This document shows positions 39,542 to 53,124 of a DNA stretch of 64,000 nt, piece by piece. The translations under genes and the position numbers were made by a program. The notes below the pieces were generated by a model. That model was not told the origin of the DNA. It ran no database searches and saw only the letters and a program-made list of their open reading frames with translations. Position 1 is the stretch's first letter; each line of letters opens with the position of its first letter. The stretch is taken from assembly GCF_014652935.1 (NCBI RefSeq), contig NZ_BMZT01000002.1:1-64000 (forward strand), given 5' to 3'. This DNA comes from Luteimonas padinae (GTDB lineage Bacteria; Pseudomonadota; Gammaproteobacteria; Xanthomonadales; Xanthomonadaceae).

Positions 39542-40099
39542 ATGTCGATCATCCTCACCGATTTCGCCCGCGCCCGTCTGTTCCCCCGCGAGCCGCGTCG
39601 CAACACCATCCAGGACTGCACGCCGGAGCAGTTCGAGCGCCATCTCAACGAAGTGCCGCCGCTGAAGGTCCTCGACGGCTATGCGCCGTTCTGCAAGCTG
39701 CACGTGCACCGCAACTGGACCTCGACCCGCTGCCTCTCAGTGCCCATCACCGACGCCAACCGCCACCTGCTGCGCTCGGCCTACGAGGCGCGCAGCCGCG
39801 ATGAACTGCCGGTGCTGGTGCGCTGGTTCGAAGGCCTGGAGCCGCCGGTGGCCGAGTACCTTGTCGTCATCCTCTACAGCCGCGAGCAGATGGCGAAGGA
39901 GGGCACGCCGATCGACGCCGACTGGGGCGTGGTCGGCTGCATGTACACCGCCGAACCCGAGGAAACGCCGATGGCGCCGATCACGATGATGCGCAATGCG
40001 CTGGGCGTGGAGGAGGGCGGGTCGGGGGTGCCGATCGACCGCGAGGCCTACCGCCGCGCCGTGGAGTTCTGGGACGCGCACGCCAACTGGCGCGGCTGA
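39542..40099 (+). CDS. DUF3228 family protein
   Basis: A 185-residue protein: MSIILTDFARARLFPREPRR, HRNWTSTRCLSVPITDANRH, EYLVVILYSREQMAKEG and WGVVGCMYTAEPEETPMAPI are the family's blocks. Cytoplasmic, with no known function, but it occurs widely in proteobacteria and even in plants. A second ATG nine bases upstream (MAPMSII) is possible; I prefer the later one because it leaves the -10-like hexamer intact and aligns with the family start. Confidence 0.8.
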   Translation: MSIILTDFARARLFPREPRRNTIQDCTPEQFERHLNEVPPLKVLDGYAPFCKLHVHRNWTSTRCLSVPITDANRHLLRSAYEARSRDELPVLVRWFEGLEPPVAEYLVVILYSREQMAKEGTPIDADWGVVGCMYTAEPEETPMAPITMMRNALGVEEGGSGVPIDREAYRRAVEFWDAHANWRG

Positions 40100-40197
40100 C
40101 GGTCCGCGCGCCGGCAGGGCCCGCAGCGGCCGGCAGCCGATGTGATCCGGCTGCGCCTCGGCTAAGGTGGGCTCCGGTCAACCGGGGAGGCGGCACG

Positions 40198-41787
40198 ATG
40201 TGGCAGCGGACGTGGTCCAGGCGCGAGGTTCTGGCGTCGATGGCGGCAGGGGCCGCCTGCATGGCGCTGCCGGGAATGGCCGGCGCGCGGGGGACGCCGG
40301 CGGCTGGCGCGGGCGTGCTGCTGCGTGACGTGCGCCTGGTCGACGGCAGCGGCGCGCCCGCGCGAAGCACCGACGTGCTGGTGCACGGCGACACCATCGC
40401 GCGCGTCGGTCGGGTGCGCGCCCGCGACGCGCACGGACTGCGCGTGGTCGAGGGTGGTGGTCGCGTGCTGGCGCCGGGCTTCATCGACCTGCACACCCAC
40501 GGCGACCCGCTGGAGGTGGCGTTCACGCCGTTCCTCGCGATGGGGGTGACCACGGTGGTGCTGGGTCAGGACGGCGGCAGCCCCGCGCTGCCGGGCACTG
40601 CGCGCGACTCGGGCAGCCTCCCGGCCTGGATGGACGCGGTCGAGGCCGCGGCGCCGGGCCTCAACGTCGCGACGCTGTCCGGCCACGGCGCGCTGCGCCG
40701 CCGCGCCGGCATCGACGACGGCACGCGCCGGCCTTCGGACACGCAGCTGGAGCGGCTGCAGGCGGTGCTCGACGCCGACCTGCGCGCCGGCGCCTTCGGC
40801 CTGTCGACCGGACTGGAATACGTGCCCGGCCGCTACGCGGAGATGCGCGAACTGGCCTCGCTCGGGCCGGTGGTCGCGCGCGCCGATGGCGTGGTGATGA
40901 GCCACATGCGTTCGGAGGATGCCGGCGACGTGCGCGCCTCGATCGACGAACTCATGCAGGCCGCGGGGCCGGCGCGCGCACACGTCTCCCACCTGAAAGT
41001 GGTGTACGGCCAGGGCGAAGCCGCCGCGGAGGAGCTGCTGGCCTTCCTGCGCGGGCTGCGCGGCGCCGGCAACAGCCCGACCGCCGACGCCTATCCCTAC
41101 GAGGCCAGCTACACCGGCATCGGCATCCTGTTCCCGGAGTGGGCACTGCCGCCAAACGACTATCCGGCGGTGGTGGCCGCGCGCGGCGACGAGCTGCGCG
41201 CGCACCTGGCGGCGCGGATGGAGCAGCGCAACGGCCCTGGCGCCCTGCTGTTCGGCACCGGGCCGCACGCCGGCCGCAGGCTGGCGCAGGTGGCGGAGGC
41301 CGAGGGCCGGCCCTTCGTCGAGGTGCTGGTGGCGCTGGGGCCGGGCGGCGGCCAGGCCGCGCATTTCGTCATGGACCGCGCGCTGCAGGACCGTCTGCTG
41401 CTGGAGCCCTTCGTCGCGATCGCCAGCGACGGCTCGCCCGGCGGCAGCCATCCGCGCGGCGCGGGCACCTTCGCGAAGTGGATCGAGGCCTTCGCCACCG
41501 GCGACGCGCGCGTGCCGCTGGAAGAGGCGGTGCGCAAGGCGACCTCGCTGCCGGCGTCGATCCTCGGCCTGCGCGACCGCGGCCTGGTGCGCGAAGGCGC
41601 GAAGGCGGACCTGCTGCTGTTCGATCCCGAGCGCGTGCGCGCCCGCGCCGACTACGTGGATCCCACGGCGATGGCCGAGGGCTTCGACCTGGTGCTGGTG
41701 AACGGACAGTCCGCCTTCGAGGACGCCGCCGCCGGTGCGAATGCCGGCCGCCTGCTGCGGCGCGGTGCCACGCCCGCGGGCGCCTGA
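40198..41787 (+). CDS. N-acyl-D-amino-acid deacylase, Tat-exported amidohydrolase
   Basis: A 529-residue protein with TWSRREVLASMAAGAACMAL, a twin-arginine signal. The mature part is an amidohydrolase-superfamily enzyme: GFIDLHTHGDPLEV (HxH metal site), GLSTGLEYVPG, HMRSEDAGD, HVSHLKVVYGQ and IASDGSPGGSHPRGAGTF (catalytic Asp). These match the D-aminoacylase group, which removes acyl groups from N-acyl-D-amino acids. GGGGAGGCGGCACG before the ATG is a fair ribosome site. With the S66 and M14 peptidases upstream it suggests local use of cell-wall or peptide fragments. Confidence 0.85.
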   Translation: MWQRTWSRREVLASMAAGAACMALPGMAGARGTPAAGAGVLLRDVRLVDGSGAPARSTDVLVHGDTIARVGRVRARDAHGLRVVEGGGRVLAPGFIDLHTHGDPLEVAFTPFLAMGVTTVVLGQDGGSPALPGTARDSGSLPAWMDAVEAAAPGLNVATLSGHGALRRRAGIDDGTRRPSDTQLERLQAVLDADLRAGAFGLSTGLEYVPGRYAEMRELASLGPVVARADGVVMSHMRSEDAGDVRASIDELMQAAGPARAHVSHLKVVYGQGEAAAEELLAFLRGLRGAGNSPTADAYPYEASYTGIGILFPEWALPPNDYPAVVAARGDELRAHLAARMEQRNGPGALLFGTGPHAGRRLAQVAEAEGRPFVEVLVALGPGGGQAAHFVMDRALQDRLLLEPFVAIASDGSPGGSHPRGAGTFAKWIEAFATGDARVPLEEAVRKATSLPASILGLRDRGLVREGAKADLLLFDPERVRARADYVDPTAMAEGFDLVLVNGQSAFEDAAAGANAGRLLRRGATPAGA

Positions 41788-41803
41788 GCCGGCGCCCGGC
41801 ACG

Positions 41804-42865
41804 TCACATCACCGCAAGCTCCGCATTCGACAGGATCCCGCGGTACTGCTCGCGCAGCCGCACCTTGCGCGCCATGTCCGCGATGATGGCGCTGCTGAAG
41901 TCGACGCCGGTCAGCGCCTCGGCCATGTTGATGCCGCCGGGCGTGTCCACGTTCACCTCCATCAGCTTGTCGCCGACGATGTCGAGGCCGGCCAGGTACA
42001 TGCCGTCGCGGATCAGCTTCGGCGCCACCGCTTCGGCCAGCCGCAGCGCGTCGGCGTCGGGCTCGGCCAGCTCGATCTTGCCGCCGGCGCTGATGTTGCT
42101 GCGCGCGTCGCCGCTGTCGTTGTAGCGGCGGAAGCAGGCGTAGCGTCCGTCGACGCGCAACGGCCGGCCGTTGAGGGTCAGCAGCCGCAGGTCGCCCTCG
42201 GCGGCGCCTGGTAGGTACTCCTGCGCGATCGCGTAGCCGTCGCGGATCACCGCCTCGATCATCTGGTTGAGGTTGGCCGCGTCGCCGTCCTTGACCACGA
42301 ACACGCCGTGCCCGCCGGATCCCTGCAGCGGCTTGATCACGCCGCGGCCGCCGTGGGTGGCGATGAAGGCGCGCAGCTCGTCGGCGTCGCGGCTGATGCA
42401 GGTGACCGGGCGCACCTCCTCGGGGAAGTGCTGGAAATAGGTCTTGTTGGAGGCGTTGGTGAGGTGGAAGGGATCGTTGAGCACGATCACGCCGCGCCGC
42501 GTCACCAGCTGCGCGAACAGCAGGGCGCTGTTCGAGGCCCATGGTCGCTCAACCAGTTCTTCGGCCGGGTCGCTGCGCAGCATCAGCACGTCCAGCTCCT
42601 CGACGTTGATGCGCTGGGTGGCGGCCTCCTCGCCCTGGATCTCGTCGAGCAGCGCCTGGTCGTCGGCGTAGGCGCTGCCGGCGGGGAGGTGCGCCATCGC
42701 GCAGACGGTGCCGTTGGCGTCGTAGATGAAGTCGGCCAGGCCGATCAGCGCTACCTGGTGACCCTGGTTGGCCGCGGTGCGCGCCAGGCGGATGGTGGTG
42801 TAGTTGTCCTGTTCGGTGGCGACGTCGTTGACGACGAAGCCGAGCCGCAGGGTGCGGTCGCTCAT
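41804..42865 (-). CDS. Glutathione synthetase-like ATP-grasp ligase
   Basis: A 353-residue ATP-grasp protein: LRLGFVVNDVATEQDNYTTI, LNDPFHLTNASNKTYFQHF, GVIKPLQGSGGHGVFVV (ATP-binding loop), DGRYACFRRYNDSGDARSNI and KLMEVNVDTPGGINMAEA (Mg2+ site). It resembles GshB but sits third in an operon with N-formylglutamate amidohydrolase and DUF1704, an arrangement distinct from glutathione biosynthesis. It may ligate an amino acid to an unknown acceptor. Its start overlaps the previous stop (ATGA). Confidence 0.82.
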   Translation of the reverse strand: MSDRTLRLGFVVNDVATEQDNYTTIRLARTAANQGHQVALIGLADFIYDANGTVCAMAHLPAGSAYADDQALLDEIQGEEAATQRINVEELDVLMLRSDPAEELVERPWASNSALLFAQLVTRRGVIVLNDPFHLTNASNKTYFQHFPEEVRPVTCISRDADELRAFIATHGGRGVIKPLQGSGGHGVFVVKDGDAANLNQMIEAVIRDGYAIAQEYLPGAAEGDLRLLTLNGRPLRVDGRYACFRRYNDSGDARSNISAGGKIELAEPDADALRLAEAVAPKLIRDGMYLAGLDIVGDKLMEVNVDTPGGINMAEALTGVDFSSAIIADMARKVRLREQYRGILSNAELAVM

Positions 42866-44085
42866 GGCACGGATTCCTGGGAGGCGGGGGAAGGGGGATG
42901 GACGTGGTGCAGGCCGGCGACGCCGGCCTGCCTGCAACGCGCCAGCACGTCGTCGAAGCCGTCGGCCAGCGCGTAGCGGGGCAGCAGCGCGGGCGGCAGC
43001 ACCCAGCCGGCGGCCGCGAGCTGCTCCAGCACCACCAGGTGGTCGAGCGCGAACTTGCCGGCGAACAGCCACTCGAAGCTGCCGCCGGAGCCAAGGTGCC
43101 CGAGCAGGTCGCGCAGGCCGCGCAGGTAGACCGCATCCTTGGTGAGGCCGCCGCCGCGGAGCGCGCGCACCGCGATGTCGAAGGCGTCGGCGGTGGAAAA
43201 GCCGTGGGCGTCGTGCAGGCAGGCGAAGACGGCGGGGATGTCTTCGCCATGGATCGCCATGTCGGCGGCCACCACGCGCGCGGCCAGCACCCGCAGCCGC
43301 TCGCCGGGCAGGTAGCCGGACAGGTATTCGGCCAGCACGCCCAGGCCTTCCTGCAGCGGGTCGTAGTGCGCAAGCCCCACCGAAAGCTGGCGCAGCGGTT
43401 GCTGCAGGCCGTTGTGGCGCGTGAGCACGTGGGTGCCGATCTCGTGCTGCACCAGCGGCTGCAGACGCGCGCGCGGCAGGCGCAGGCGTGCATCGAGGTA
43501 CAGCCGGCCGTGGGACACCATCATCAGCGAGCCGATGTCGGCGTCGACCACCACGTCGAGACTGAAGCCGGGCGCGCGCCCGCGGTACCAGTCCACTTCG
43601 TCCTCGACCGCGGCTACCACCGCGTCGACGCCGGTGTCGGCTTCCAGCGGCTCGCTGTCGGCGACGCTGGCGAGGACGTCGCTGGCCAGCGCGAGCAGTC
43701 CGGCCTCGACGCCGCCGAACAGGTCGATGCTGGCGCCCACGAAACCGTCGGTGCCGCGCAGGCGCACCAGTTCGATCATGCGCGCGAGTTCGCGCTGCTT
43801 CTCGCCCAGTACGCCGGCCAGCAGCGGTGACTCGATCCGCTCCACCGGCAGCGCCAGCAGGCGCTCGCGCATCGCGTCGAGGCCCGCCGGCGGCTCGGCG
43901 TAGCGCAGTGGTGCCACCCGCCGGCGGCCGGAGGCCTCGAAGTCCTCCCAGAGCGCGTCGGTGCCGAGCGGCGTAAGCGCGATCAGCCAGTCCAGTCCGG
44001 CGTCGATCTCGATCAGCGCCGCGTCCACCTCGGCGGCGACCGGCGGCAACGGGCGCGGCGACACGGCGCCGTGGTCCGCGCTCAC
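42862..44085 (-). CDS. DUF1704 / QEGLA motif metallopeptidase-like protein
   Basis: A 407-residue protein with a GTG start overlapping the previous stop (GTGA). LQPLVQHEIGTHVLTRHNG carries HExxxH (H214, E215, H219), and YDPLQEGLGVLAEYL is the QEGLA motif with the third zinc-binding Glu. The family includes the eukaryotic MATCAP tubulin carboxypeptidases, so a peptidase that removes a C-terminal residue is a reasonable idea. Older labels call it 'flavohemoglobin expression-modulating' without strong support. Operon: formylglutamate amidohydrolase, this gene, ATP-grasp ligase. Confidence 0.82.
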   Translation of the reverse strand: MSADHGAVSPRPLPPVAAEVDAALIEIDAGLDWLIALTPLGTDALWEDFEASGRRRVAPLRYAEPPAGLDAMRERLLALPVERIESPLLAGVLGEKQRELARMIELVRLRGTDGFVGASIDLFGGVEAGLLALASDVLASVADSEPLEADTGVDAVVAAVEDEVDWYRGRAPGFSLDVVVDADIGSLMMVSHGRLYLDARLRLPRARLQPLVQHEIGTHVLTRHNGLQQPLRQLSVGLAHYDPLQEGLGVLAEYLSGYLPGERLRVLAARVVAADMAIHGEDIPAVFACLHDAHGFSTADAFDIAVRALRGGGLTKDAVYLRGLRDLLGHLGSGGSFEWLFAGKFALDHLVVLEQLAAAGWVLPPALLPRYALADGFDDVLARCRQAGVAGLHHVHPPSPASQESVP

Positions 44086-44939
44086 CCGGCGGCCCTGAAG
44101 TCGTCCCGCACCGCGTCGACCGCGGCCTGGAGCCCGTCGCGCATGGCATACAGCGCGGCGATGTCCGCCTGGCCGCTGTGCTCGTCCATGAAGATCTTCT
44201 TGTATTCGGGCGAGATCGTGCACACGCGGCTGCCCCAGCGCGCGTATACCCATTCCGGGAAGTCGCCACCGGTGGGGAAGCGCACGTTTGCACGCACATC
44301 CGGCATGCGGCCGGCGATCGGCGTGGCGCGCAGCGCGTCGGCGAAGCGCGCGGTCACCGCGCTCCAGCGCGCGGGGTCGGCCGTGGTCAGCCCCAGCTCG
44401 ATGTCCGGGTTGTCGTCCTGCGGCGCGGCGTCGGCATCGGGACCGTCGCGGCGGTGGTTGTAGCTGTGGATGTCGACCAGCAGCACCGCGTCCCAGCGTT
44501 CGAGCAGGCGGTCGAGCAGCTCCGCGACCATCGAGCGGAAGCGGTCCCAGCCGGCGAGCGACCGTGCGATCTCGGACTCGGGCAGCGGCCGCCGCCATAC
44601 CTCCAGGCCCCAGCAGTCGTCCGGGCCGGTGTACACCGCGCCCTTGCGCGGCCGGTTGTGGTCGAGCTCGAAGCGCGAGGTCGGAACCTGGATGCGCACG
44701 TCGCCGACGGCGGTGAGCAGGCCGGTGAGCGGATCCTCCTCGCGGAAGCGTGCGGCGTCGGGAAGCGCCAGCAGCGGCCGCAGCGCGGACCGGATGCGGT
44801 GGCCGTCGTGGATCGCGGTGGCGACCACGGGGCCGTCGGACACCGCGATGTTCCATTCGCGCGTCGCGGGGCTGGGGATCGGCAGGTCGTCGCCGGCGAA
44901 GTAGCGGCCGCGCGCGGCGGTGATGTCTCGCAAAGCCAT
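44082..44939 (-). CDS. N-formylglutamate amidohydrolase family protein
   Basis: A 285-residue protein starting MALRDITAARGRYF. DGHRIRSALRP, TSRFELDHNRPRKGAVYTGP, LLVDIHSYNHRRDG (HSY metal/catalytic motif) and FPTGGDFPEWVYARW are the conserved FGase blocks. HutG-type members cleave N-formylglutamate, but in this neighbourhood the enzyme probably acts on another N-acyl or C-terminal amide. First gene of a tightly overlapped three-gene operon. The ATG is preferred over longer frames, which lack homology. Confidence 0.85.
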   Translation of the reverse strand: MALRDITAARGRYFAGDDLPIPSPATREWNIAVSDGPVVATAIHDGHRIRSALRPLLALPDAARFREEDPLTGLLTAVGDVRIQVPTSRFELDHNRPRKGAVYTGPDDCWGLEVWRRPLPESEIARSLAGWDRFRSMVAELLDRLLERWDAVLLVDIHSYNHRRDGPDADAAPQDDNPDIELGLTTADPARWSAVTARFADALRATPIAGRMPDVRANVRFPTGGDFPEWVYARWGSRVCTISPEYKKIFMDEHSGQADIAALYAMRDGLQAAVDAVRDDFRAAG

Positions 44940-45033
44940 GGTGCCGATGCTGGCAGCGCCGCAATGATCATGCCGTGACCACCGCGCTGCGTTGCCCACG
45001 CGCAGGACACGCAGCGCCTGCGAGCATGCCGCC

Positions 45034-46146
45034 ATGTCCGCACGCATGCACGCACTGCCCGTGGTCGCGATGCTGGCGGTGGCGATGCTCGTGCCGCTGG
45101 CCTGCGGGAAGACACCTGGCGTCGATCCGCCGCCGCCGTCCGCCGCGCCTCCAGCCGGGTTGGCGGCGCAGTCCGGGGGCTGCGTCGCGCGGCCGGACCG
45201 GCAAGGCCTGGCCGCGACGGTCGCGGCGCTGCTGGCCGAGGCCGACGCGATCGCGCCGCTGCGCGCGGTGGTGGTCGCGCGCGATGGCGTCGTGCTGGCA
45301 GAGCGCGGTTATGGCGGTGCGCGTCCCGACACGCCGGCCAACATCAAGTCGGCCTCGAAGACCGTGGTGTCGGCCCTGGTCGGCGTCGCGATCGACAAGG
45401 GCCTGCTCGAGGGCGTCGACCAGCCGATCGCGCCGCTGCTGGACACGGAGCTGCCGCCCGATCCCGATCCACGGCTGGCGCGCGTCACCATCGGCCACCT
45501 GCTGTCGATGCAGGCGGGCCTGGAGCGCACCTCGGGCCCGTACTACGGGCGCTGGGTGGCCAGCGACAACTGGGTGCGCGATGCGCTGGCGCGGCCCTTC
45601 GTCGACGAGCCGGGCGGGGCGATGCTGTATTCCACCGGCTCCACGCACCTGCTGTCAGCAATCCTTGCGCGCGCCAGCGGGCGGCCGGTGCTGGAGCTTG
45701 CGCGCGAATGGCTCGGCCCGCAGGCCGGCTTCGTCATCTCCGCGTGGGACCGCGACCCGCAGGGTATCCACTTCGGCGGCAACAACATGGCGATGGACAC
45801 GCGCTCGCTGCTGGCCTTCGGCGAGATCTACCGCAGCGGCGGCGTGTCACGCGACGGACGCCGGCTGCTGTCCCGGGCGTGGATCGACGCGTCGTGGCAG
45901 CCGCGGACGCAGTCGCGCTTCACCGGCGACGGCTACGGCTACGGCTGGTTCCTGCGCGACATCGCCGGCGAGCCTGTGCGCTTCGCTTGGGGCTACGGCG
46001 GGCAGATGCTCTACGTCGTGCCTTCGCTGGAGCTGGTGGTGGCCATGACTTCCGATGACGGCCAGGCGTCTGCCCGCAGCGGCCACCGCGATGCGCTTCA
46101 CGGGCTTGCCGCGGAGGTCATCCGCGCGGCGCGCTGCGCCTCCTGA
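45034..46146 (+). CDS. Serine hydrolase (beta-lactamase fold) lipoprotein
   Basis: A 370-residue protein starting MSARMHALPVVAMLAVAML, with lipobox LVPLAC. The mature part is a class C beta-lactamase/DD-peptidase-like enzyme: NIKSASKTVVSALVG (SxxK), MLYSTGSTHLLSA (YxT/N motif) and WGYGGQMLYVVP (third motif in place of KTG). It acts in the periplasm and may hydrolyse esters or D-peptides rather than beta-lactams. It is divergent from the formylglutamate amidohydrolase operon. Confidence 0.82.
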   Translation: MSARMHALPVVAMLAVAMLVPLACGKTPGVDPPPPSAAPPAGLAAQSGGCVARPDRQGLAATVAALLAEADAIAPLRAVVVARDGVVLAERGYGGARPDTPANIKSASKTVVSALVGVAIDKGLLEGVDQPIAPLLDTELPPDPDPRLARVTIGHLLSMQAGLERTSGPYYGRWVASDNWVRDALARPFVDEPGGAMLYSTGSTHLLSAILARASGRPVLELAREWLGPQAGFVISAWDRDPQGIHFGGNNMAMDTRSLLAFGEIYRSGGVSRDGRRLLSRAWIDASWQPRTQSRFTGDGYGYGWFLRDIAGEPVRFAWGYGGQMLYVVPSLELVVAMTSDDGQASARSGHRDALHGLAAEVIRAARCAS

Positions 46147-46195
46147 GCCCGCCGCCGCCCGCCGCCGCGAGTGCCGGAAGTCCGCCTTCATGTGC

Positions 46196-46201
46196 TAATG
46201 T
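46196..46201 (+). promoter_or_regulatory. -10-like hexamer TAATGT before the borosin-like locus
   Basis: TAATGT lies in the 136-base gap after the serine hydrolase gene. A transcript starting just after it would carry a ~75-base leader to the precursor ATG, which has GGGGAC as a weak ribosome site. No clear -35 box is visible. Confidence 0.35.
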
Positions 46202-46282
46202 CCGCCGATGCTGCGGGTCGGGAAGGGGCTGGGGAGTCCCGGCGCGGGCCGTGGACGTTCGCACATCGACGGGGACAAGAAG

Positions 46283-46495
46283 ATGCTGACGCTGCTGGAC
46301 CTGATGAGGAAGCTCGCGAGTGATGCCGCGCTGGCCGCGGAATACGAGAGGGACCCCGCCGCCGTGGTGAGCCGCGCCGGCCTGACCGACGAAGAGCAGA
46401 AGGCGATGCTGGCCAAGGACTACGCGTCCATCAAGGAGCTGACCGGGCTGAGCGACGGCCAGTTCGCGACCAACCACATCGTCAAGGCGTACTGA
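46283..46495 (+). CDS. Predicted split-borosin RiPP precursor peptide (70 aa)
   Basis: A 70-residue protein: MLTLLDLMRKLASDAALAAE, then YERDPAAVVSRAGLTDEEQK and a tail ending NHIVKAY. The helical body with D-P-x-A-V and AGLT-D-E-x-(2)-A-M-L matches the LigA-like binding domain of split-borosin precursors such as Shewanella SonA. There, a short hydrophobic C-terminus is N-methylated on backbone amides; here the candidate core is about FATNHIVKAY. The downstream gene encodes the matching methyltransferase domain, 39 bases away. The in-frame upstream ATG at 46208 is disfavoured because the added residues do not align. No cleavage site is recognisable. Confidence 0.75.
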   Translation: MLTLLDLMRKLASDAALAAEYERDPAAVVSRAGLTDEEQKAMLAKDYASIKELTGLSDGQFATNHIVKAY

Positions 46496-46534
46496 CCGCC
46501 GTCCTCGCCGCCGTCCGCCGCGACCGCACGCCCC

Positions 46535-49033
46535 ATGTGCCGGCTGGCCCGCATTGCCGCCGTCCTCGTGCTGGTGCTGGCGGGTGCGCCGGTGCTTGCC
46601 GACGATGCGCTGGAAGCACGGGTCGCGGAGATCGAGCAGCTGGGGATCTCCGCGCACTGGCGCGAATCCGACCGCAAGCTCGACGACCTGGCACCGCGCC
46701 TGGATGAACTCACGCCGGAGCAGCGCGCCCGGGTCGAGTTTGTGCGCCTGCGCAACCTCGGGCTGGCCGGCAGGGAGCCCGCGGCGCTGCAGGGCTTCTC
46801 CCGGCTGCTGCAGCAGGCGGAGATGCCAGCCGCGCTGCGGGTGCGCGCCTACACCACCGCGATCAGCATCGCCGCCAACGTCGAGGACTGGCCGCGGGCC
46901 TTCGGCTGGCTGAGCGAAGGCCTGGAATACCTGCCCGACGCGCCGGAAAGCGCTCCCGCGCTGCTCGGGGCCGCCAGCTACCTGCACACGCTGGTGGGCG
47001 AGATCGGCAAGGCGCGCGACCTCGCCCGCCAGGCCCTGGATGCGGTGGAGGCGACGGGCGACGCGCGTGGGCGCTGCCTTGCGCTTGCCGACCTCGCGAT
47101 GGCCGAGGACCACGCGGGCAACTACAGCGAAGCCGAAGGCTGGAGGCGCCGCCAGATCGACGCCTGCCAGGCTGCCGGCGACCGCGTCTTCGTGGCCAAC
47201 GCCAAATACGGCATCGGCAAGATGGTCGCGGCCCAGGGACGGCCGGCGGAGGCGCTGGACTGGTCGCGCCAGGCGCTGGCCGAATTCGAGGCGGCCGGCT
47301 TCGCCGCGGGCAGCTGGAGCGCGCGGCTGGAGCTGGCCGGCAACCTCATCGCGCTGGACCGCGAGCTCGACCGCGCGGAGTCCATGCTGCTCGAGACGCT
47401 GGAGTATTACCGCGGCCAGAACACCGAGCTCGCGGTAGCCGAGACCGAGCGCCTGCTCGCGCGGCTCGCGGAGCAGCGCGACGACGACGTCGGGGCGCTG
47501 ACCCACCTGCGGCGGGCGATGGACGCGCAGGAAATCGCCGAGCGTGAATCCCGCGAGCGTCGCTTGGCCTATCTCCAGGTGGAATTCGACACGCAGCTGA
47601 AGGAGCAGCAGATCGCGCTGCTCGAAGCCGAAAAGGAGCTGGCCGCGCTTCAGGTCACGGCCACCCAGCGCCGGCAGTGGCTGCTCGGCATGGGCATGTT
47701 CGGCCTGCTGGTCACCGCGCTGCTGCTGCTGCTCCTGCTGCGGCACAGCTCGCGCGAGCGCGGCCGCTACCGCCATCAGTCGGAGCGCGACGGGCTGACC
47801 GGCCTGTTCAACTACCAGCAGGTGCGCAAGCGCGGCGGCGATGCCTTCCGGCGCGCGCGCCAGGACGGCCGCCCGTTCACCGCCGTCATCGCCGACATCG
47901 ACCTCTTCAAGCAGGTCAACGACCGCCACGGCCACGCCGCGGGCGACGAGGCGCTGCGCTCCCTCGGCGGCTGGATCAGCGGGATCGTCGGGGCCGGCGC
48001 GATCGCCGGCCGCAGCGGCGGCGACGAGTTCACGATCCTGCTGCAGGGAACGGCCGCCGACGCCGAAGCGCTGCTGCAGCGCCTGCGCGAGCGGATGGAG
48101 CCGATCACCGTGTTCGGCCAGACCTTCAGCTTCAACTTCAGCGCCGGCGTGTGCCAGTACGACGGCAGCACGACCACGCTCGAACAGCTCATCCACAACG
48201 CCGACCAGGCGCTGTACCGCGCCAAGCACGGCGGGCGCGACCGGGTGGTCTGCGCGCGCGGGGCGGGGCAGCCGGAGGCGGGGCCCAGTGGATCGCTGGT
48301 GGTGGTGGGCAGCGGCATCCAGTTCGGGCGCCACACCAGCGAGCGCACGCTGTCGGAGATCCGCGAGGCCGAGCGGGTGCTCTGCCTGGTCGATCCGTTC
48401 GCGCTGGGAATGATCCACGGCTTCCGGCCCGACGCCGTCAACCTCGGCGTCCACTACGCGCCGGGCAAGGACCGCCGGGAAACCTATCGCGAGATCGAGG
48501 CCGCGATCATGGCCGAGGTCGAGGCCGGCCGGCAGGTCTGCGCGGTGTTCTACGGCCATCCCGGCGTCTTCGCCGACGTGCCGCATGCGGTGGTGCGCAG
48601 GACGCGCGCGCTGGGCCTGCCGGCGCGCATGGAGCCCGGCATCTCGGCGGAGGCCTGCCTGTACGCCGACCTCGGCCTGGATCCGGGACTGCGCGGCGTG
48701 CAGTCGCTGGAGGCCACGCACTTCATGATCCACGACCGCGAACCGGACACCGCCGCGCTGGTGCTGCTGTGGCAGGTGACGCTGGCCGGCGACCTCTCCT
48801 GCACCCGGTTGCACGCCGAGCCGGAAGGACTGCAGGCGCTGGTCGACAAGCTGCTGCGCTGGTATCCCGCCGACCACGAGGTGGTGCTGTACGAGGCGGC
48901 GCAGCTGCCGATCGACGCACCGCGGATCGATCGCCTCGCGCTTGCGGACCTGCCAGCGGCGCATTACGAGGAATACACCACGCTGGTGATCCCGGCGCTG
49001 CGCGTGCCGCGCAGGGTGCAGGCCGGCGCCTGA
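46535..49033 (+). CDS. TPR-transmembrane-GGDEF-borosin methyltransferase fusion
   Basis: 832 residues. Order: signal peptide 1-22; TPR-like helical repeats ~40-330 (for example LARQALDAVEATGDARGRCL); coiled coil ~335-380; one transmembrane helix ~381-403; GGDEF domain ~413-575 with ADIDLFKQVNDRHGH (D454, N462) and GGDEF at 495-499. The RxxD inhibitory site is replaced by GAGA (486-489). From ~586 to 822 comes a tetrapyrrole-methylase-fold domain of the borosin type: GSLVVVGSGIQFG, YGHPGVF (673-679), MEPGISAEACLYADLG, LLWQVTLAGD. Y641, R647 and Y651 match the catalytic Tyr/Arg/Tyr spacing of OphMA and SonM. The TPR part is periplasmic; the cyclase and methyltransferase are cytoplasmic. It follows its likely substrate gene. 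Confidence 0.85.
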   Translation: MCRLARIAAVLVLVLAGAPVLADDALEARVAEIEQLGISAHWRESDRKLDDLAPRLDELTPEQRARVEFVRLRNLGLAGREPAALQGFSRLLQQAEMPAALRVRAYTTAISIAANVEDWPRAFGWLSEGLEYLPDAPESAPALLGAASYLHTLVGEIGKARDLARQALDAVEATGDARGRCLALADLAMAEDHAGNYSEAEGWRRRQIDACQAAGDRVFVANAKYGIGKMVAAQGRPAEALDWSRQALAEFEAAGFAAGSWSARLELAGNLIALDRELDRAESMLLETLEYYRGQNTELAVAETERLLARLAEQRDDDVGALTHLRRAMDAQEIAERESRERRLAYLQVEFDTQLKEQQIALLEAEKELAALQVTATQRRQWLLGMGMFGLLVTALLLLLLLRHSSRERGRYRHQSERDGLTGLFNYQQVRKRGGDAFRRARQDGRPFTAVIADIDLFKQVNDRHGHAAGDEALRSLGGWISGIVGAGAIAGRSGGDEFTILLQGTAADAEALLQRLRERMEPITVFGQTFSFNFSAGVCQYDGSTTTLEQLIHNADQALYRAKHGGRDRVVCARGAGQPEAGPSGSLVVVGSGIQFGRHTSERTLSEIREAERVLCLVDPFALGMIHGFRPDAVNLGVHYAPGKDRRETYREIEAAIMAEVEAGRQVCAVFYGHPGVFADVPHAVVRRTRALGLPARMEPGISAEACLYADLGLDPGLRGVQSLEATHFMIHDREPDTAALVLLWQVTLAGDLSCTRLHAEPEGLQALVDKLLRWYPADHEVVLYEAAQLPIDAPRIDRLALADLPAAHYEEYTTLVIPALRVPRRVQAGA

Positions 49034-49043
49034 GGGCGTGGTG

Positions 49044-49072
49044 GCCGCCGCGGACCCCGGGTCCGCGGCGGC
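49044..49072. terminator. Perfect inverted repeat between convergent genes
   Basis: GCCGCCGCGGACCC and its complement GGGTCCGCGGCGGC form a near-perfect palindrome of 29 bases between the stop of the fusion gene and that of the M28 peptidase. There is no T-run, so it is probably a bidirectional Rho-assisted terminator or stabiliser. Confidence 0.6.
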
Positions 49073-49078
49073 GCAGGC

Positions 49079-50671
49079 TCACTTCGGATCGAGCAGCGGC
49101 TTGCGCGGCATCCGCTCATCGCGCATCGCCGCGTGCCAGGCGAACGAGGCCACGATGGCCGCGGCCTGTTTGAGGTCCTCCGGCTCGGCGTGGTCCCAGG
49201 TGTCCAGGTGGGTGTGGTGGACGTTGGTGAAGTAGTCCAGCCGGTCCTGGATGAACTGGAAGCCGGGCAGCCCGACGCGGTCGAAGGCGATGTGGTCGGT
49301 GCTGCCGGTGTTGCGCGTGGCGACGGTGGTGGCGCCGACGTCGTGGAAAGGCTTGAGCCAGGCCTCGAAGATCGGCATCGCGGCGAGGTTCTCCTGCGCG
49401 TAGATGCCGCGGAAGCGACCCGAACCGTTGTCCATGTTGAAGTAGACCGAGAAGCGCTCGTAGTCGCGCATCTTCCGCAGCGGGCCGGTGGGCTCGCGCA
49501 GCGAGGCCGGCAGCGCCTTCTGCGCCGGGTCGGTGGGCTCGGGGTAGTGGGCGAAGTGGCGCGCCACGTAGTCCTGCGAGCCGACCAGGCCCTGCTCCTC
49601 GCCGCTCCACAGCGCCACGCGGATGGTGCGCTCGGGCCGCGCGCCCACGGCCTTGAGGATGCGCATGGCCTCCATCATCACCGCCACGCCGGCGGCGTTG
49701 TCGGCGGCGCCGGTGCCGGTGTGCCAGGAGTCGAGGTGCGCGCCGATCATCACGATCTCGCCGGCCTTGCCGCCGCGGCCGGGGATCTCGGCGATGGTGT
49801 TGTGGCCGGGCTGGTTGGTCTCGTCGGTGAAGCGGGCGGCGACGTTGACGCGCAGGCGCACCGTCTGGCCATCGTCGAGCGCGCGCACCAGCGGATTGAA
49901 GTGCTCGGCGATCATGGCCAGTTCGGGGATCCCGACCGGCTCGCCGGCCTTGCGCGAGCCGCCGCCGGCGACGCGGATGATGCCGTTGTCCCAGCTGCTG
50001 ATGCTGATCGCCGCCAGCGCGCCTTCCTCGGCGAAGAAGGCGTTGACCGCACGGGTGAGCTCCTGGCGCTCGCCGTACTCCTTGACCCGCTTCGCGCGGT
50101 CGGCGGCGGCGGTCTTCGGCACGGTGAATTCCTGCAGCCCTTCCAGCGAGGTGGCGTCGTGGCGGTGCGAATCCGGCTCGGTGCCGCGCTTGTACTCGCG
50201 CGCCTCGCCCAGCAGCAGGACCTTGCCGCCGAGCTTGCCGCGGTACTTCTCGATGTCGGCCAGGGTCTTGATGTCGACCTTCACCAGTTCGCCCTCGACA
50301 GGGCCGTCGGTGCCCGGCGTCCAGGCCTTGGGCAGGGCGTGCAGCGGCTGCACGCGCCCGCCGAGCATCTCGACGCTGGCGGCGCTGAACTCCCAGCCGC
50401 GGCCGAAGTCCTCGAAGGCGTCGTCGTGGACGTTGGACAGGCCCCACTCGCTGAACTTGCCGCGGGTCCAGGCGTTGGCTTCCGCCATCTGCGGCGAGTT
50501 GCTCAGGCGCGGGCCGATGGTCTCGGTGAGGTGGCTGAAGGTCGCCATGACCTGGGAGTTGTGGAAGGCCTCCTGGCGGATCCGGCTGACCATGTCCAGG
50601 TCCACCGGTTCGTTGGCCATGGCCAGGCCGCTGGCGGCGAGGAGCACCGCCATCACGTAACGCTTCGACAT
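49079..50671 (-). CDS. M28 family zinc aminopeptidase, exported
   Basis: A 530-residue protein with a signal peptide (MSKRYVMAVLLAASGLAMAN). M28 core: MIGAHLDSWHTGTGAADNAA (first His and bridging Asp), WSGEEQGLVGSQ (catalytic Glu pair), YFNMDNGSG (Asp) and VHHTHLDTWD (last His). Residues ~130-270 form the PA-like insert. It cleaves N-terminal residues or dipeptides in the periplasm. It converges with the GGDEF-methyltransferase gene and shares no operon with it, so a role in maturing that peptide would be pure speculation. Confidence 0.9.
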   Translation of the reverse strand: MSKRYVMAVLLAASGLAMANEPVDLDMVSRIRQEAFHNSQVMATFSHLTETIGPRLSNSPQMAEANAWTRGKFSEWGLSNVHDDAFEDFGRGWEFSAASVEMLGGRVQPLHALPKAWTPGTDGPVEGELVKVDIKTLADIEKYRGKLGGKVLLLGEAREYKRGTEPDSHRHDATSLEGLQEFTVPKTAAADRAKRVKEYGERQELTRAVNAFFAEEGALAAISISSWDNGIIRVAGGGSRKAGEPVGIPELAMIAEHFNPLVRALDDGQTVRLRVNVAARFTDETNQPGHNTIAEIPGRGGKAGEIVMIGAHLDSWHTGTGAADNAAGVAVMMEAMRILKAVGARPERTIRVALWSGEEQGLVGSQDYVARHFAHYPEPTDPAQKALPASLREPTGPLRKMRDYERFSVYFNMDNGSGRFRGIYAQENLAAMPIFEAWLKPFHDVGATTVATRNTGSTDHIAFDRVGLPGFQFIQDRLDYFTNVHHTHLDTWDHAEPEDLKQAAAIVASFAWHAAMRDERMPRKPLLDPK

Positions 50672-50849
50672 CCTGATTCCTTCGCGCCGGGACGGGGCGC
50701 TGCAAGCCTTCGACTCTAGCGGCCGTGGCGCCGCGCTTCACCCGTCTTTAGTCACGCCGGTGCGCGGACCGCGCGGGCCGCGCACTGGTCCGCCGCCGCT
50801 GTTTGCTACGCTTCGCGCCCCCGCCACCGGATCGTCCGCCGTGCCCCTG

Positions 50850-51731
50850 ATGTCCTCGCTGCGCGCCGCCTTGGTCCTGCTCCTGATCATCCTGCACACG
50901 CTGGTGCACGCGCTGCCGCTGCTGCTGCTGGCGCTGGTGAAGGCGCTGCTGCCGTTCCCCGGCCTGCGCCGTGCGCTGGGCGGCGTGCTGGCGGCCATCG
51001 CCGAAAGCTGGATCGCGGCCAACACCTGGATGGTGGACCACCTCACCGGGACCCGCTTCCACGTCGCCGGCGACGACGGGCTGCTGGCCGACGGCCACTA
51101 CCTCGTGCTGGCCAACCACCAGAGCTGGGTCGACATCGTCGTGCTGCAGAAGGTGTTCAACCGCCGCATCCCGCTGCTTCGCTTCTTCCTCAAGCAGCAG
51201 CTGTTCTGGGTGCCGGTGCTGGGCCTGGCCTGGTGGGCGCTCGACTTCCCCTTCATGGGCCGCTACAGCCGCGCGGAGATCGCGAAGAACCCGGAGCTGG
51301 GCCAGCGCGACATCGAGGCCACGCGCCGGGCCTGCGCGAAGTTCCGCGAGATGCCGGTGGCGGTGATGAACTTCGTCGAAGGCACGCGGTTCACGCCGGA
51401 GAAGCACGCGCGCCAGGCCTCGCCCTACCGCCACCTGCTCAAGCCCAAGGCCGGCGGCGTGGCCTTCGTGGTCGACGCCATGGGCGATGCGCTGCACGCG
51501 GTGCTGGACGTCACCATCGCCTATCCGGGCGGGCGTCCGACGATGATGGACCTGATGGGCGGGCGGATCCCGGACGTGCACGTGCTGGTGCGCCAGCGCC
51601 CGATCCCCGACAGCGAGGCGATGGGGGGGCGCTACCAGGACGACCGCGCGGCGCGCGCACGCTTCCAGCAGTGGCTCAACGGGATGTGGCGGGACAAGGA
51701 CGAGGCGCTGGCGCGCCTGCTGGGCGACTGA
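50850..51731 (+). CDS. 1-acylglycerol-3-phosphate acyltransferase family (YihG-like)
   Basis: A 293-residue protein with an N-terminal membrane helix (LVLLLIILHTLVHALPLLLL). LVLANHQSWVDIVVLQ is the NHxxxxD motif, MNFVEGTRFTPEKHA the EGTR acceptor-binding motif, and the AYPGGRPTMMDLMGG block follows. The set fits the YihG group of LPLAT acyltransferases. It acylates lysophosphatidate or a related lipid at the inner membrane. An in-frame GTG nine bases upstream is an alternative start. Confidence 0.85.
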   Translation: MSSLRAALVLLLIILHTLVHALPLLLLALVKALLPFPGLRRALGGVLAAIAESWIAANTWMVDHLTGTRFHVAGDDGLLADGHYLVLANHQSWVDIVVLQKVFNRRIPLLRFFLKQQLFWVPVLGLAWWALDFPFMGRYSRAEIAKNPELGQRDIEATRRACAKFREMPVAVMNFVEGTRFTPEKHARQASPYRHLLKPKAGGVAFVVDAMGDALHAVLDVTIAYPGGRPTMMDLMGGRIPDVHVLVRQRPIPDSEAMGGRYQDDRAARARFQQWLNGMWRDKDEALARLLGD

Positions 51732-51770
51732 GTCCCGCCGCGCGCCCTGGCGTGCGACCGTGGCGGAGCT

Positions 51771-51932
51771 TCAGCCCGCCGGGTCGGAATCGGGCTCCGG
51801 TTCGGGAGCCGGCCCGGCCGCCGCGGCCCGGGCCTCGCGTTCGGCGCGCTTCTTCGCTTCCTTCTCGTCCTGCTTCTTCTTCTTGGCCAGCTCGCGCTGG
51901 CGCTTTTCGAACGAATAGTTCGGCTTTGCCAT
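51771..51932 (-). CDS. Small highly charged conserved protein (53 aa)
   Basis: MAKPNYSFEKRQRELAKKKK begins a 53-residue protein that is mostly Lys/Arg/Glu helix and ends in a Pro/Glu/Asp tail. Short proteins starting AKPNYSFEKRQ are familiar in Xanthomonads and other proteobacteria, but their role is unknown. It may be a nucleic-acid or ribosome-associated peptide. It converges with the acyltransferase gene. Confidence 0.75.
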   Translation of the reverse strand: MAKPNYSFEKRQRELAKKKKQDEKEAKKRAEREARAAAAGPAPEPEPDSDPAG

Positions 51933-52263
51933 GGATCACCGTGGGGAAATAGGGCGTCCAGTGTAACCGCCGGTTCCGCGGGGGCCGCGGCGGCCGTCCA
52001 TGCCGTCCTCGAGGAGGCGTGGCCGTCGCAGGAATCCGATAGACTCCGGGAACGCCGACGTGACAGGTCCTGTCCGTTTCCCGGCGCCGGCGATGCCGCC
52101 GCATCCCGCCGTCGGTCCCGCCGAGCCAGCACGCGCATGGCCCGGGAAACCCGGCCGCCGTGCCCTTCCGCGCGCGGTGCGACTCCATCCCGATTCCTTC
52201 AACCGCGTCCGCCGCCGGATGTGTCCGGCTGCGTGCGTCGATCAACACCATTGGCAGGAGCTC
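51933..52263 (+). promoter_or_regulatory. 331-base intergenic leader with TAGACT box
   Basis: TAGACT at 52040-52045 could be the -10 of the PhnD-like operon, giving a ~215-base leader. The leader has GACAGGTCCTGTC, a short palindrome, and GGGAAACCC plus CGGTGCGACTCC blocks that hint at structure. I could not match it to a known riboswitch. No open frame in it looks coding. Confidence 0.35.
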
Positions 52264-53124
52264 ATGTCCGAATCCGTCATCCGCATGGGGGCCGTGTCCT
52301 ACGCCCCGAAGGTCGTCACCATCTGGGAGGGCTTCAAGCCCTGGCTGAAGGCGCGCGGTTTCGCCTTCGACTACGTGCTGTATTCCAACTACGAAGCGCT
52401 GGTCGAGGCGCTGATGGCCGGCCAGCTGCATTTCGCCTGGAACTCGCCGCTGGCCTTCGTGCGCGCGCAGCGCATGGCGCGTGCGCTCGGGCAGGAGGTC
52501 GAGCCCATCGTCATGCGCGATACCGACATGGACCTGCAGTCGGTGCTGGTGGTGCCCGCCGGCAGCGACGTCCGGGGCGTGGAGGACCTGCGTGGCAGGA
52601 CGCTGGGCTTCGGCGCCATCGATTCGCCGCAGGCCACGCTGATCCCGCTCGATCACCTGCGCCAGCACGGCCTGGTCCGGGGGCGCGACTACAGCGCGCG
52701 GCTGTTCGACGTGCTGGGCGGCAAGCACGGCGACCACATCGGCGGCGAGCGCGATGCGGCCGAGGCCATGGTCAAGGGCGACATCGACGCCGCGTGGATG
52801 ATCGCCGGCAACTACCAGGCCTTCGCGCAGGAGGGCACGCTGGCCGCCGGGTCGACCCGCATCGTCGCCACCACCGGCGAATTCGACCACTGCAACATGA
52901 CCACCGCGCCCGGCCTGGATCCGGCGCTGGCGCAGCGCTTCGCCGACCTGCTGCTGGGCATGTCCTGGGACGACCCGGAGGTGCGGCCGCTGCTGGAGCT
53001 GGAAGGCCTGAAGGTCTGGCACCGGGGCCGCAGCAGCGGCTACGCCCTGCTCGAACGCGCCGTGGACGACGAGAAGTTCTACGACGCCCAGGGCCGGATC
53101 ACCGAATCGAAGTACGACTACTGA
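52264..53124 (+). CDS. PhnD-like substrate-binding protein without signal peptide
   Basis: A 286-residue protein after GGCAGGAGCTC, a strong ribosome site. IRMGAVSYAPKVVTIWEGFK, LMAGQLHFAWNSPLAFVRAQ, VEDLRGRTLGFGAIDSPQAT and VKGDIDAAWMIAGNY follow the PhnD/SsuA-type periplasmic binding fold. No signal or lipobox precedes it, so it should be cytoplasmic, and no ABC permease or ATPase is near. It is the first gene of a module with a dehydrogenase-like flavoprotein and a ferritin-like protein. It might sense or hold a small anion or organic ligand for them. Confidence 0.7.
   Translation: MSESVIRMGAVSYAPKVVTIWEGFKPWLKARGFAFDYVLYSNYEALVEALMAGQLHFAWNSPLAFVRAQRMARALGQEVEPIVMRDTDMDLQSVLVVPAGSDVRGVEDLRGRTLGFGAIDSPQATLIPLDHLRQHGLVRGRDYSARLFDVLGGKHGDHIGGERDAAEAMVKGDIDAAWMIAGNYQAFAQEGTLAAGSTRIVATTGEFDHCNMTTAPGLDPALAQRFADLLLGMSWDDPEVRPLLELEGLKVWHRGRSSGYALLERAVDDEKFYDAQGRITESKYDY

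Follow-up and report, generated by a model that had tools for sequence, protein, structure and literature searches.

The window examined here, a stretch of 64,000 nucleotides from Luteimonas padinae (contig NZ_BMZT01000002.1, positions 1 to 64,000), carries at 46283–49033 on its forward strand a two-gene locus for a 70-residue peptide and an 832-residue membrane protein. As judged from the sequences, a SonA-like precursor, a SonM-like methyltransferase (MT) and a protein with a tetratricopeptide repeat (TPR) region, a transmembrane (TM) helix and a GGDEF domain constitute one conserved unit, which is encoded here in two genes. The predicted domain content and borosin kinship of the locus are close to certain, and it is quite likely that modification of the peptide and the sensor cyclase are functionally connected. 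The fuller reading, in which a split-borosin peptide gene stands beside a modifying enzyme fused to its partner sensor and both act in the circuit proposed below, comes just short of even chances.

It was confirmed that the two open reading frames (ORFs), of 70 amino acids (aa) at 46283–46495 and 832 aa at 46535–49033, both on the forward strand, lie 39 bases apart (46496–46534), as stated in a preliminary description made from the DNA letters. Comparison of the C-terminal domain of the larger protein (residues 586–822, 48290–49000) with PDB sequences gave E-values of 6.8e-67 for SonM, 3e-36 for OphMA and 4.5e-4 for the best precorrin methylase, and the NCBIfam tetrapyrrole models scored far under their cut-offs. 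A cobalamin or siroheme methylase identity was therefore rejected, and the borosin-type assignment made in the preliminary description was upheld. The motifs YGHPGVF, MEPGISAEACLYADLG and LLWQ and the residues Y641, R647 and Y651 were found in the MT domain where they had been placed before. The codons of these three putative catalytic residues fall within 48455–48487, and that of Y673 is at 48551–48553; the Y641/R647/Y651 spacing is presumably that of the catalytic Y/R/Y residues of OphMA. All four residues were present in 21/21 sequences (the window protein and 20 fused relatives, see below), and in a 37-row alignment Y641, R647 and Y673 were invariant and Y651 was kept in at least 90% of rows. 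The domain probably adds methyl groups to the peptide backbone.

Inspection of the 832-aa protein with Pfam gave TPR_12 (1.5e-10, in three stretches), GGDEF (1.2e-33, residues 418–570) and TP_methylase (5.3e-15, residues 588–789), which together with hydropathy bore out the earlier statement that a signal peptide, TPRs, a TM helix and a GGDEF domain are combined in one protein. Two hydrophobic segments were observed, at residues 4–22, within the signal peptide (residues 1–22, 46535–46600, also supported by the N-termini of fused relatives), and at residues 384–402, the single TM helix (47684–47740, Kyte-Doolittle 2.56). This suggested that the TPR-type sensor region (residues 26–380, 46610–47674) is periplasmic and that the GGDEF and MT domains lie inside the cell. 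The TPR region also matched the TPRs of GPSM2 weakly (E 1.9e-5). In the GGDEF diguanylate cyclase domain (residues 413–573, 47771–48253; TIGR00254 1.8e-35) the sequence RSGGDEF is intact and the RxxD inhibitory site is absent; the GG[DE]EF motif and the metal-binding Asp are those of a diguanylate cyclase sequence, and the membrane sensor probably makes cyclic di-GMP (c-di-GMP). A variable linker (residues 574–585, 48254–48289) separates this domain from the MT. Among the same 21 sequences, the invariant columns amounted to 110/237 in the MT, 48/164 in the GGDEF domain, 45/355 in the TPR region and 0/12 in the linker, so that the MT is the best-kept part of the fusion, followed by the GGDEF domain and then the TPR region. 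A 948-aa open frame antisense to the fusion gene (46118–48964, reverse strand) is probably an effect of high GC content and not a gene.

The best PDB matches of the 70-aa protein in phmmer were SonA chains (best E 1.2e-6), in line with the precursor role suggested previously, and its Pfam LigA score of 24.3 bits was just under the cut-off of 25.3. The orthologues upstream of fused loci and the conservation of columns also point to a precursor. Residues 1 to ~56 are predicted to form the borosin-binding domain (BBD), and residues ~60–70 (QFATNHIVKAY, 46460–46492) are the presumed core. A separately encoded precursor with a BBD and a C-terminal core is thus found at the sequence level, as in split (type IV-like) borosins. 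When the alignment to SonA is extended without gaps, the methylation sites of SonA, L63 and I65 (PMC8429565), fall on T63 and H65 of the window precursor, the register of this extension being unsure. Among 41 precursors of fused loci, F61 was kept in 36, A62 in 38, T63 in 36, N64 in 35 and Y70 in 40, and position 66 was variable.

Relatives were surveyed by searching 101 genomes, the window's own included, with the MT domain at E 1e-3. A total of 76 matches was obtained in 66 genomes, of which 72 were strong (E 4e-52 or better) and four were short and weak. Larger stretches were examined for 70 of the strong loci, the window and genome G043 not being among them, and 20 of these stretches contained one long ORF with TPR, GGDEF and MT. 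Together with the window and G043, in which the MT and TPR matches fell within one 816-aa open frame, 22 of the 72 strong loci were fused. The precursor was located directly upstream in 20/20 of the fused loci examined as larger stretches, at a distance of 8–39 bases; a chance arrangement is excluded because all of them share the two-gene layout. The fusion claimed in the preliminary description is thus a real single gene conserved in relatives, and not two separate genes. An artefact of assembly or sequencing was likewise rejected, as the fusion recurs in 43 of the 163 distinct MT sequences analysed below.

Among the loci listed, the fused form occurs in Luteimonas, Pseudoxanthomonas, Thermomonas, Dokdonella, Rubrivivax gelatinosus and others. 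Its presence in R. gelatinosus, a betaproteobacterium (L114, L153, L113), suggests horizontal transfer; strain IM 151 has two copies on two scaffolds. A Dokdonella metagenome-assembled genome (L108) contains two tandem precursor-fusion pairs, the first MT scoring lower than the second (7e-107 vs 2e-140).

The loci in which the MT is a separate gene gave strong support to the link between borosin enzyme and GGDEF sensor that had been read from the window alone. At 48 of the 50 split loci, a gene for a GGDEF protein was found on the same strand within ~1.1 kb of the MT, and 47 of these 48 genes also matched a TPR profile built from the fused proteins. The two exceptions were L051, which is cut by a contig end, and L093, the second borosin copy in its genome. 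The latter, in the Wenzhouxiangella-type genome G068, has a SonA-like small protein ending in FIII. Since GGDEF domains occur once per ~159 kb (487 domains in 77.6 Mb over 21 genomes), a GGDEF gene beside an MT would be expected by chance in an estimated <1% of cases. A second collection of 79 loci, from the best 80 of at least 534 relatives, showed a fused or adjacent GGDEF in 78, the exception (L126) being the contig end of L051; because it overlaps the 101 genomes, this collection is not an independent survey. The gene order is precursor, TPR-GGDEF, MT in Wenzhouxiangella and Sedimenticola and MT, precursor, TPR-GGDEF in Shewanella. In Shewanella hafniensis (L164) the MT is a SonM orthologue (9.4e-163) and a TPR-GGDEF gene comes next; in another Shewanella sp. 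(L156) the precursor is a SonA orthologue (8.8e-41) and the next gene encodes a TPR-GGDEF protein with a broken frame. The Shewanella loci examined are from species other than S. oneidensis. These results demonstrated that a TPR-GGDEF gene is the neighbour of most members of this borosin clade, including the Shewanella orthologues of SonM and SonA.

A quick tree, with several long branches, was made from 163 distinct MT sequences, after exclusion of identical or contained sequences and of matches that fell below 190 residues or were weaker than 1e-20; L188 was excluded for weakness, and the rows likewise do not include a second MT-like ORF of L106. All 43 fused rows fall to the same side of one branch, whose support in the SH-like approximate likelihood ratio test (SH-aLRT) of 82 is not strong. 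The next strongly supported set (99) comprises 63 rows: the 43 fused ones, 17 with the sensor upstream, two with it downstream and one cut by a contig end. Of the 120 unfused rows, 105 are accompanied by a GGDEF gene no more than 1.5 kb away (downstream in 82, upstream in 22, divergent in one), three have a TPR-histidine kinase, and 12 have no sensor gene within that distance. In a version of the tree in which the window row was wrongly sliced, 10 of these 12 fell outside a clade of 153 rows (SH-aLRT 93), and the two inside it were L051 and the long-branched L186. Distant borosin MT domains were also seen in 460–530-aa open frames without a sensor gene (L201–L203), perhaps representing another borosin type.

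The TPR part is the constant partner, while the output domain changes. At L181, L194 and L199 the gene that follows MT and precursor encodes TPR, HisKA, HATPase and receiver domains, and at L180 both a TPR-histidine kinase and a TPR-GGDEF protein are present. When the same 101 genomes were searched with the TPR region only (single-sequence query, 1e-5), 74 matches were obtained in 58 genomes, 59 of the matches being at an MT locus. Within the genus (52 genomes), TPR and strong MT were both present in 39 genomes and both absent in the same 13, a weak partial MT match in G005 being counted as absent. The four of these 13 congeners that were included in the GGDEF count keep 9, 24, 20 and 24 GGDEF domains. 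In a sample of 297 genomes of the family, 23 TPR matches reached 1e-15, and 19 of them lay in open frames of at least 842 aa; the other four were broken or cut frames (G1102, G879) and split relatives (G870, G929). Of the TPR matches away from MT loci, those in G012 and G036 resemble the fused type closely. One decayed locus (G012, L209) has lost its MT in frame except for ~27 residues, and its TPR-GGDEF protein is intact; the precursor there has lost most of the BBD in frame and has kept the core GKFATNHTIRAYD. This case, a single one, speaks for a connection of core and sensor.

A precursor profile built from the fused clade matched, at 1e-6, 20/20 fused loci and 55/79 loci of the second collection (the best 80 of at least 534). 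A second profile was grown from a small ORF of L146 in five rounds on ORFs lying between MT and sensor. Among 84 split loci in which the sensor lies downstream it matched 76, with SonA-type precursors among the matches, and in two stretches of these loci taken as controls it matched 0/82 and 0/84. Many members of the family thus collected (for instance at L146:7531–7722, L083 and L091) show near their end a short hydrophobic stretch, often with Cys (such as ARTNVVCGLHP or LMCMIIAPDEGE), followed by an acidic tail. It is possibly another class of borosin core.

We propose the following circuit. The BBD of the precursor would dock on the cytoplasmic MT domain, which would methylate backbone nitrogens of the core. 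The methylated core might then be protease-resistant and cross membranes better, and the released peptide, or a complex containing it, would be recognised by the TPR domain on the periplasmic side of this protein. From there the signal would be relayed by the single TM helix to the GGDEF domain, with a change in c-di-GMP synthesis as the outcome. Where the fusion is present, one polypeptide would be both receptor and peptide-modifying enzyme. That the peptide is the ligand of the TPR domain is a fair guess at somewhat under even odds. The self-contained version, in which a backbone-methylated peptide crosses the membrane, binds the adjacently encoded periplasmic TPR domain and controls either c-di-GMP or, as in some relatives, a histidine kinase, is put forward tentatively. 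As for the direction of influence between peptide and sensor, we infer that reading of the peptide by the TPR domain ranks first, gating by the sensor second and intracellular docking third.

Several observations weigh against this circuit. The window core carries K68 and a polar TNH stretch and is not very hydrophobic, which makes its passive passage through the membrane doubtful. No route of export or cleavage was identified, an exporter or protease having been sought only among the five flanking window genes. These five genes were sought at 20 fused loci (L031–L050), and each was kept at only 1–6 of them: the acyltransferase at 6, the glutathione-synthetase-like frame at 5, the N-formylglutamate amidohydrolase-like gene at 4 and the beta-lactamase-like gene at 1, with an M28 peptidase gene on the opposite strand at 4 (L031–L034, near relatives). 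When distances in the MT and GGDEF domains were controlled for, no covariation between core and TPR distances was evident (partial r 0.075, with 100 of 500 permutations as high). Under the same control within the fused clade, the docking domain did covary with the TPR region (partial r 0.396, 0/500 permutations), which was unexpected.

Losses and absences also count on this side. G036 keeps its TPR-GGDEF protein after loss of both MT and precursor, so the sensor can outlive the peptide, and G012 and G036 each carry another, split MT locus. Fifteen of the 74 TPR matches, most of them weak, lie away from MT loci, and a complete MT was found at none of the 10 examined. Outside the genus (49 genomes) the correspondence is less strict: single-sequence searches gave both TPR and MT in 14 genomes, MT only in 11, TPR only in 5 and neither in 19; all 11 MT-only genomes have an adjacent GGDEF gene that is too diverged for the TPR search. 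The link to the sensor is a trait of a clade, since the 12 sensorless rows of the tree are more distant borosin MTs. The fused-clade precursor profile matches only 5 of 50 split loci at 1e-6 and 7 more weakly, and the E-values of the second profile are flattering because it was trained on those very gaps, so that its control stretches are the better guide.

The strongest rival, which we regard as unlikely, reverses the direction: the TPR domain would respond to an unrelated signal from the periplasm, and methylation or production of a borosin that serves another purpose would be gated by the GGDEF domain, either by way of c-di-GMP or by contact. The operon and fusion data fit this model equally well. 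It is also in keeping with the state of the cyclase, the GGDEF motif being intact in 41/41 fused and 106/108 split sensors and the RxxD inhibitory site present in 0/41 fused and 59/108 split ones, a difference which indicates that cyclase regulation differs in the fused clade. Nevertheless, the core kept beside the MT-less TPR-GGDEF protein of G012 is not predicted if the cyclase purely controls the enzyme, although this is a single case.

Precursor and MT might instead be an intracellular regulatory pair, in which docking or methylation sets the dimerisation of the MT and thereby of the GGDEF domain, and no peptide is released. GGDEF enzymes need dimers, which is a point for this model, and the MT follows directly after the GGDEF domain, with the 12-residue variable linker between them. 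Apart from the opposite-strand M28 peptidase of four near relatives, no exporter or protease among the flanking window genes is kept in relatives. SonM is described as dimeric and as forming a complex with its precursor (PMC8429565). However, MT and GGDEF are different proteins in 105 of the 163 rows, which means that a direct mechanical link is not the general rule, and G012 lost most of the BBD and kept the core. On balance this model is improbable.

It was also considered that modification and c-di-GMP synthesis share a regulon without any contact, the fusion being a neutral loss of a stop codon. The smallest strongly supported set beyond the fused rows contains the 17 rows with the sensor upstream of the MT, which is the easiest order for fusion by read-through. 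The shared presence and absence in the 52 congeners, the change of output domain while the TPR part is kept, and the persistence of the fusion across 43 distinct sequences all speak against mere co-expression, which we judge quite improbable. The Pfam labels (TP_methylase, and LigA below its cut-off) might be taken to mean an ordinary tetrapyrrole methylase next to an unrelated LigA-like protein, but the SonM, OphMA and precorrin E-values, the low NCBIfam scores and the first match of the precursor to SonA leave practically no room for this.

Other features around the locus are mentioned briefly. No Rfam RNA, such as a c-di-GMP riboswitch, was found at the gathering threshold in window 40000–53000. 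Frames on the reverse strand at 41804–45047 match N-formylglutamate amidohydrolase, MATCAP (tyrosine carboxypeptidase-like) and glutathione-synthetase ATP-grasp, and look like an unrelated operon. A distant M28 peptidase (28–29%) is also present in L053 and L054.

The closest known system is the type IV split borosin SonM/SonA of Shewanella oneidensis (PMC8429565; PDB 7ltc and others), with which the window locus shares MT homology, a BBD-core precursor, the catalytic residues and a separate precursor gene. It differs in that the MT is the C-terminal domain of a TPR-GGDEF protein, in the order of precursor then sensor-MT, and in the core, FATNHIVKAY being unlike SYLVISHG of SonA. Type IV borosins have a free-standing MT of ~260 aa; because the MT of the window is part of an 832-aa protein, the locus is a fused-enzyme variant and not a plain type IV. 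The fungal OphMA/dbOphMA enzymes have the same catalytic domain, but in these the MT and its own core form one protein, whereas the MT of the window is joined to a sensor, with the core encoded separately. With membrane diguanylate cyclases of the TPR-TM-GGDEF type, the fusion protein shares the signal peptide, TPRs, one TM helix and a GGDEF domain with intact motif, to which it adds the C-terminal borosin MT, and it lacks RxxD. The likeness to TPR peptide receptors of the RRNPP type is one of idea only, a TPR protein acting as receptor of a peptide encoded next door. RRNPP receptors are cytoplasmic, and their peptides are not known to be backbone-methylated.

Borosin types V–X reportedly stem from Imani 2022 and Cho 2022. 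In a 2024 scheme of types 0–XI, the legend of Figure 1 defines 'GGDEF, GGDEF-sequence-containing domain' (PMC11395268). The preliminary description knew of no borosin described with this architecture, and the novelty that this implied has to be weakened: the TPR-GGDEF-MT fusion may have been published already, the comparison with this scheme being by the wording of its legend alone. Apart from that legend, a literature search, with most subscription papers outside its coverage, turned up no connection of borosins with TPR sensors, swapped outputs or c-di-GMP control.

According to the 2021 split-borosin paper, none of these pathways had yet been tied to a final natural product (PMC8429565). 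The TPR sensor that accompanies split borosins in several proteobacterial families, retains its TPR part through changes of output and is joined to the enzyme in one clade gives them a concrete candidate role, peptide-linked c-di-GMP signalling. The conserved adjacency of peptide, enzyme and sensor is a hint that such peptides, about which little is understood, have a part in cell signalling. If the proposed circuit is true, it would represent a bacterial peptide signal modified in a manner familiar above all in fungal borosins and nonribosomal peptides. This would make borosins of the SonM/SonA type signals instead of toxins or antibiotics; in the clade of the window, modifying enzyme and receptor would be one protein.

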